Source: a virus. Taken from it: DNA of 20,110 nt. Every line of letters starts with the position of its first letter. Position 1 is the first letter of the stretch. The notes under the pieces were generated by a model that did not search any database, had not been told where the DNA came from, and saw nothing but the letters and a program-made list of their open reading frames with translations. Positions 6,352 to 6,860 of the stretch are shown one piece after another. Made by a program: the position numbers and the translations under genes. The DNA lies in the IMG/VR virus record IMGVR_UViG_3300012928_000062, positions 1-20,110 of that record, one strand, 5' to 3'.

Positions 6352-6813
6352 TTATTTATCGAGTAATACGAATTGGAATTCACCTTCCTCTTCAGGTTTA
6401 CCCCACGCTTGTTTATCTGTCTCAGTATCCCAACCCTGATCCATTGATCTGTAATCCAATCCATTGAATCGGATCTTAGACTTGACCAGATACTTTCCGA
6501 CTCGGCAGAATCCATCAGGAATTCCTGTCCACCACTTACCGTCCCAAGTCCAGATAAAGGGACAACTGTCTTCCCTACTGATGTAATTGAATATATCTGT
6601 CTTTACAGTGGTCTCGGTAGATTCTGTAATCCTATACCTCAACCAGTTGTAAGCATTCTTCTCACCTTGATACTTGTACCAGGATTTGGATTCATATACT
6701 CCAGACTGAGTTTTCCAAATCCTGATATCTATCTGTGGCCATTGCGCTGGATTAGATTGCGCCTGCAGTTTATTACGATAATGCCCATATAAGAGCTCTT
6801 CAAAGTTATTCAT
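6352..6813 (-). CDS. cpeT: CpeT/CpcT-like phycobiliprotein chromophore lyase
   Basis: The protein has 153 residues, shorter than cyanobacterial CpcT/CpeT (about 200) and similar to phage versions. The N-terminus shows the family signature FEELLYGHYRNKLQAQSNPAQW (residues 4-25): an aromatic/G-x-(Y/F)-x-N-x-x-QA pattern followed by NP. It is followed by a (Y/W)-rich core with VYESKSWY near 39-46. The C-terminus has MDQGWDTETDKQAWG then EGEFQF (124-148), matching the family ending DRG-D-ET-WG-GPFRF. CpeT enzymes attach phycoerythrobilin to a cysteine of the beta subunit of phycoerythrin, so this is an auxiliary gene acting on host light harvesting. It has its own consensus promoter. A GTAAGGGTTGAG stretch precedes the ATG. 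Substrate specificity cannot be inferred. Confidence 0.78.
   Translation of the reverse strand: MNNFEELLYGHYRNKLQAQSNPAQWPQIDIRIWKTQSGVYESKSWYKYQGEKNAYNWLRYRITESTETTVKTDIFNYISREDSCPFIWTWDGKWWTGIPDGFCRVGKYLVKSKIRFNGLDYRSMDQGWDTETDKQAWGKPEEEGEFQFVLLDK
6353..6360 (-). promoter_or_regulatory. Late promoter motif GATAAATA before gp5-like gene
   Basis: The minus strand reads GATAAATA, seven of eight to the T4 late consensus with the variable first base changed, about 22 bases upstream of the gp5-like ATG. It overlaps the cpeT stop codon, one of the few positions in this packed module where a dedicated promoter could fit. Confidence 0.45.
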
Positions 6814-6831
6814 CTCAACCCTTACATGGTT

Positions 6832-6860
6832 ATTATAATAATTTATTGTAGGTTTGTCAA
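6832..6860 (-). promoter_or_regulatory. Full-consensus sigma-70 promoter for cpeT
   Basis: On the minus strand TTGACA (6860-6855) and TATAAT (6837-6832) are separated by exactly 17 bases: both hexamers and the spacer match the bacterial housekeeping consensus. Transcription would start near 6825, giving a leader of about 12 bases before the cpeT ATG at 6813. The -35 hexamer contains the cp12 stop codon (TGA). It is unlike the T4-type late motifs elsewhere in the window and resembles host-read early promoters. Confidence 0.75.

Follow-up and report, generated by a model that had tools for sequence, protein, structure and literature searches.

In a T4-like cyanophage, we found a perfect sigma-70-type promoter directly before the photosynthesis auxiliary gene cpeT, with an operator-like palindrome over its predicted start site, and the same promoter-palindrome unit recurs in the gap before gene 55, the late sigma factor gene, where it is directed away from gp55. 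As judged from sequence comparison, the fact that cpeT and the late master-switch gene share one unit points to a circuit of early/late control that has not been described before. We regard it as reasonably probable that the unit combines a strong early promoter for cpeT, used by the host RNA polymerase, with an operator for a phage regulator that would also act at gp55.

The window analyzed here, a stretch of 20,110 bases from an IMG/VR virus record, encodes on its minus strand, in this order, a 460-aa tail protein, cp12, cpeT, a gp5-like hub, a DUF7294 protein and a Phd-like protein. The gene identities assigned in the preliminary description were borne out by profile matches: cp12 (7084-6857, 75 aa; PF02672, E = 3.6e-12) lies upstream of the promoter, cpeT (6813-6352, 153 aa, CpeT/CpcT family; PF06206, E = 5.5e-10; phrog_488, E = 2.2e-31) is the first gene behind it, and the gp5-like baseplate hub/tail lysozyme gene (6330-3589; phrog_694, E = 4e-162) lies downstream of cpeT. 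Co-directional with these, the DUF7294 gene (3557-3366; profile matches, phrog_662) follows gp5, as does the Phd-like gene (3369-3121; phrog_31964, E = 3.8e-26; phrog_375, E = 9.8e-7). The product of positions 2582-2097 (minus strand), downstream in the same module, is 161 aa long and matches a JmjC_2/cupin-like domain (PF08007, E = 1.7e-8).

The promoter, TTGACA-N17-TATAAT at 6860-6832 on the minus strand, matches the sigma-70 consensus at 12 of 12 positions, as the preliminary description had claimed, and no other site in the window reaches 12/12. Its -35 box (6860-6855) is built on the cp12 stop codon, overlapping the TGA at 6859-6857, and is followed by a 17-nt spacer (6854-6838), the -10 box (6837-6832) and the imperfect palindrome AACCATGTAAGGGTT (6831-6817, approximately -6 to +9). 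The spacing predicts a transcription start at a G six bases past the -10 box, position 6825, the same start as had been proposed before. The cpeT ATG at 6813 begins 19 nt past the final -10 base, and the resulting 12-nt leader would contain a Shine-Dalgarno-like AAGGG (6823-6819), 5-10 nt 5´ of the ATG. In 3000 dinucleotide-preserving shuffles of the window, a 12/12 site arose in 1.4% of sequences when spacers of 16-18 nt were allowed and in 0.3% when the spacer was exactly 17 nt. Sites matching at 9-10 of 12 positions were about as frequent as expected by chance (38 observed vs 37 expected).

We also searched the locus for phage-type promoter elements. At cpeT the T4-type late motif NATAAATA is absent; the spacer holds just AATAAATT (6847-6840, at -34), which is degenerate and not kept in relatives, and a late promoter overlapping the sigma-70 site was rejected on these grounds. 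A MotA-type middle promoter was likewise not found, since TGCTT is absent from 6870-6820 (minus strand) and TTGACA is present where a MotA box (TGCTT at -30) replaces the -35 element. Within 70 nt upstream of start codons, NATAAATA was found for gp5 (as GATAAATA, 6360-6353, 30 nt 5´ of the start), a 1031-aa gene (-67) and the ORF at 1062, but not for cp12 and most other starts in the window, so the characterization of the module as otherwise marked by T4-type late motifs holds only in part. Given its own late-type motif, gp5 is independent of the cpeT promoter, from which read-through into gp5 is possible.

The unit is carried unchanged at the cpeT site by close IMG/VR relatives. Among 12 distinct sequences, including one (L014) with 46% CpeT identity, no position varies in either hexamer (0/6 and 0/6) and only one of 15 varies in the palindrome, whereas variation affects 11 of the 17 positions of the spacer and 29 of 30 wobble positions in cp12, a pattern that by this comparison reflects purifying selection on the hexamers and palindrome. 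The element lies directly before cpeT at the cp12-cpeT-gp5 loci L001-L014, L033-L042 and L047-L054; in L015 and L016 it is found just behind cp12, several hundred bases upstream of cpeT. It is absent from L029-L032, L043-L046 and L060, in which a cpeT with 46-62% identity is still located between cp12 and gp5. Loss of the motif in close relatives that keep cpeT had been proposed as a refuting test. No such loss was seen among close relatives, the promoter being kept in every relative with CpeT identity of at least 63% and in one at 46%, but some distant clades (46-62% identity) lack it. We consider it nearly certain from these alignments that the cpeT site is a genuine, selected sigma-70-type promoter. 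Promoters of this type are held to serve early genes in T4-like cyanophages (PMC2984593), and early use of the cpeT promoter by the host RNA polymerase is likely.

When 2.9 million viral contigs were searched for the -10 box plus palindrome, 67 sites were returned, all with an upstream TTGAC-type -35 box; 22 of these are before cpeT and 45 elsewhere, many without a sense ORF behind them. A second scan was carried out for the AACACTGT variant, and contexts were pooled over the at least 147 sites from both scans. Among the sites listed, at least 69-70 are divergent from or antisense at gp55. The cp12/cpeT/gp5 neighborhood accounts for at least 36 (assigned by distance to homologues, with three of the 36 listed having a weak gp5 match only), at least 25 of them directly before cpeT; at least 13 precede a 65-70-aa gene (phrog_718) and at least 28 are in other contexts. 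The four sites of this last class that were inspected run antisense to a giant structural gene at its 3´ end, and their -35 box falls where the following small gene starts. Overlap or abutment of the -35 box with the next small gene's start was noted in L065, L072, L073, L092 and similar loci, and at P-TIM40 101138 (minus strand).

Whole-genome scans of ten T4-like cyanophages (S-WAM1, S-SM1, Syn33, S-MbCM6, P-TIM40, S-SZBM1, Syn9, S-PM2, P-RSM6 and S-B64) detected the promoter and palindrome in all ten, with one to four copies each, mostly without an ORF behind them; in P-TIM40 the unit is strongly altered. When the strict pattern was reversed, none of 20 records matched. The palindrome is absent from most of the other promoter matches of 11-12/12 in these genomes and is therefore not part of a generic promoter. 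A copy in the gp5/cpeT neighborhood is present in seven of the ten genomes at variable positions: before cp12 (S-SM1), between cp12 and cpeT (Syn33), directly before cpeT (P-TIM40), before a 2OG-Fe(II) oxygenase gene (S-WAM1, S-SZBM1) or after gp5 (S-MbCM6, S-PM2). The unit also precedes the phrog_718 gene in Syn9 (52741), S-MbCM6 (43391), S-SM1 (48992) and Syn33 (46909), and this family possibly encodes an early regulator or takeover protein. The preliminary description had viewed the cpeT promoter as dedicated to one auxiliary gene, a view that these scans do not support: the unit recurs elsewhere, mostly antisense or before other genes, so that cpeT is one member of a small regulon.

The gap before gene 55 is the most constant place of the unit, occupied in nine of the ten complete genomes; in the exception, P-TIM40, the copy is antisense to a DUF4815 structural gene. 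We collected 56 distinct gp55 upstream regions from relatives with a gp55 85-100% identical to that of S-SM1. All 56 contain the leftward unit (operator score at least 10/11), and 53 contain a rightward, sigma-70-like gp55 promoter (at least 9/12). The offset between the two -35 boxes takes a few fixed values, in most cases 10 or 1 nt, such that the divergent promoters overlap in most regions and cannot both be occupied at once. With this geometry, the palindrome center would lie approximately 56 bp before the start expected for gp55. Overlapping divergent sigma-70-like promoters with a palindrome upstream of gp55 are seen in L202-L281 (for example L203, 3866-4000).

The unit was also found before gp55 in S-CAM9, S-CAM3 and S-RIM8, and in altered form in ACG-2014f and ACG-2014d, while no recognizable operator precedes gp55 in P-HM2 or Sinorhizobium phage phiN3. 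In the P-HM2 region (L462) the leftward promoter position seems to be kept and the palindrome is unrecognizable; Eurybiavirus may use another operator. Two annotations in these regions deserve mention. The gene before gp55 at L144 (4367-4798, T4-GC_139) is labelled 'methylamine utilization', which looks misleading, as the product matches Sm_like (PF16243, E = 4.6e-47). For S-MbCM6 gp55 (NC_019444, 114102-114569), homology crosses an in-frame TAA and the annotated start is downstream, at 114312, possibly reflecting a truncation or a sequencing error.

If transcription starts where the spacing predicts, a palindrome spanning approximately -6 to +9 would be a DNA rather than an RNA feature. Symmetry is imperfect in the window (five of seven pairs complementary), higher for AACACTGTCAGGGTT (six of seven; shuffle P = 0.003) and poor in P-TIM40 (two of seven). 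Palindrome variants agree within genomes, with a mean distance of 0.96 vs 2.71 when permuted, a value reached in none of 20,000 permutations; this P is not a formal one, as the sites were gathered with these very motifs as the search pattern and common descent adds to the agreement. Both sites read AACTCTGTC in S-PM2, have an extra center base in S-SZBM1 and read AGCTTGT in P-TIM40, and at least four such coordinated changes are visible. From a conserved dyad that is positioned at a promoter, recurs at several sites and, with the caveat of shared ancestry, varies in concert within genomes, we infer that the palindrome is the operator of a dimeric DNA-binding protein.

Several candidates for this regulator were considered and set aside. 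S-PM2 and Syn33, both phages of Synechococcus WH7803, differ in the palindrome, which argues against a host regulator, and the real-looking host matches sit in mobile islands (5 of 400 genomes). The Phd-like protein has an attractive operon position, but its Pfam matches are all below the cut-off (best 0.035, PhdYefM, for one homologue), it is acidic and it is also present in genomes without the cpeT-site element, leaving it a doubtful candidate. The ribbon-helix-helix-like proteins of the islands have no convincing phage homologue.

The strict pattern matched eight sites in 85,000 bacterial genomes: two in binned cyanophage contigs, three probably due to chance and three in picocyanobacteria. 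The binned contigs are T4-like cyanophage sequences assigned to unrelated MAGs (L455, Lewinella; L460, Rhodopirellula). In a family-wide search of 400 picocyanobacterial genomes, five carried the unit, as AACTCTGTnAGGGTT (L474-L478, in Prochlorococcus/Synechococcus genomes G016, G017, G018, G266 and G284), and none carried the reversed pattern. Each of the five units has genes for a tyrosine integrase, a serine recombinase or both in its vicinity, and two also have a nearby tRNA gene; tRNAs were the only RNA families detected near the host copies. Three of the five islands encode, divergently from the unit, a 113-117-aa relative of the zinc-finger end of cyanophage DNA primase (phrog_47; 33% identity over 78 residues, E = 6.5e-5, for one island), and each of the three genes is faced by a divergent promoter. 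These layouts suggest that the gp55 arrangement may have been reused in phage-responsive islands, which are candidate satellites of T4-like cyanophages or anti-phage islands.

The operator reading we favor would work as follows. The host RNA polymerase would use the housekeeping-sigma promoter without a phage factor, and cpeT, together with gp5 and the small genes by read-through, could thus be transcribed from the start of infection, gp5 later being served also by its own GATAAATA late motif. A dimeric, probably phage-encoded protein would then bind the palindrome over +1 and shut the promoter or set its level. At gene 55, where the operator-promoter is directed away and its -35 box overlaps or abuts that of the gp55 promoter, binding would stop the antisense transcript and free gp55 transcription, or assist it from approximately 56 bp upstream, with cpeT being switched off as gp55 and the late program come on. 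We more tentatively suggest an extension in which a phage repressor/activator recognizing AACnnTGTnnGGGTT-type operators sets the time of the change to late transcription, in that it shuts the strong early promoters (those of cpeT and a small early gene, and the antisense promoters) and releases gp55 at the overlapping divergent promoters, while the Prochlorococcus and Synechococcus islands copy the operator, sense the phage and answer with the primase-zinc-finger relative, here as a stand-alone protein.

A simpler explanation, which we judge unlikely, does without an operator: cpeT would have an ordinary early promoter of the sigma-70 type, and the block that follows the -10 box would be constrained just as start site, discriminator and Shine-Dalgarno element. 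S-PM2 and Syn9 are known to have early sigma-70-like motifs (PMC2984593), and AAGGG does lie 5-10 nt before the ATG in the window, but the same block is kept at antisense sites that lack a sense ORF, most other near-perfect promoter matches in these genomes do not have it, and its variants match within genomes. The chance that the match has no function at all is negligible. Although 9-10/12 sites are as common as random expectation, a 12/12 site appears in only about 1% of shuffled windows, and the strong conservation and comparative data contradict a coincidence.

Two further explanations start from the sites away from cpeT. Strong ORF-less promoters, few per genome, in late-gene regions and near gp5, near uvsY-uvsW-gp55 or in giant structural genes, are what would be expected of transcript-primed replication origins as in T4, with an R-loop of the promoter RNA priming replication and cpeT expression as a by-product. 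We consider this idea improbable: no GC-skew extremum was found at the sites, the A+T content downstream is usually only slightly above the genome mean, a single theta origin was predicted for Syn9 (PMC2984593), and both the fixed overlap with the gp55 promoter and the palindrome would be left unexplained. The other takes the unit to have served at first for antisense RNA or transcriptional interference, limiting early read-through into gp55 and late genes, with the sense copy at cpeT secondary. About half of the sites listed fire away from gp55, and others run antisense into the ends of structural genes; antisense transcription alone does not account for the palindrome. We consider this explanation distinctly improbable by itself; it is compatible with the operator reading rather than opposed to it.

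Marine T4-like phages lack MotA, AsiA, Alt and Mod, and their control of early and middle transcription has been called unclear (PMC2984593). A conserved unit at both the late sigma gene and a photosynthesis auxiliary gene provides a concrete DNA target for the question of transcription order. Through it the lytic switch would be linked with an auxiliary metabolic gene, and the island copies suggest that a control element of the phage itself is present in chromosomal islands. Our limited literature search, which is not proof of novelty, found no description of the palindrome or of its overlap with the gp55 promoter, and no expression timing for cpeT or gp55 was found in the text of the P-HM2 paper.

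Several known systems resemble parts of this arrangement. The lambda PR/PRM region is the overlapping divergent promoter-operator switch of a temperate phage, and the gp55 region is similar in that the -35 regions of two promoters overlap and a palindrome lies at one of the start sites, but here the phage is lytic, no repressor is known and the gene under control encodes the late sigma factor. Cyanomyoviruses are known to have early motifs of the sigma-70 type, late motifs of the form NATAAATA and early promoters that overlap with late ones (PMC2984593), and S-PM2 psbA has both sigma-70 and gp55 elements (PMC5931967). Like the early promoters of S-PM2 and Syn9, the unit has consensus -35 and -10 boxes suited to unmodified host RNA polymerase (PMC2984593); unlike them, it has a palindrome over +1, occurs one to four times per genome and is mostly antisense. 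The AATAAATT in the cpeT spacer, close to NATAAATA, recalls the overlapping early/late promoters proposed for middle-type or psbA genes in RB49 and S-PM2, except that at cpeT the late motif is unconserved and the palindrome is conserved. T4 oriE uses an early-mode promoter, with oriF and oriG at uvsY and gene 34 (PMC3016281), and our sites share with these origins a promoter of early or middle type in the vicinity of gp5, uvsY or structural genes, but no downstream unwinding element or skew was seen at them, and the palindrome has no explanation there. Finally, the five islands with promoter and palindrome, three of them with the adjoining primase zinc-finger relative, resemble tycheposon-type elements and phage satellites, helper-dependent islands of picocyanobacteria that differ from the phage in being chromosomal and in carrying integrase and recombinase genes.
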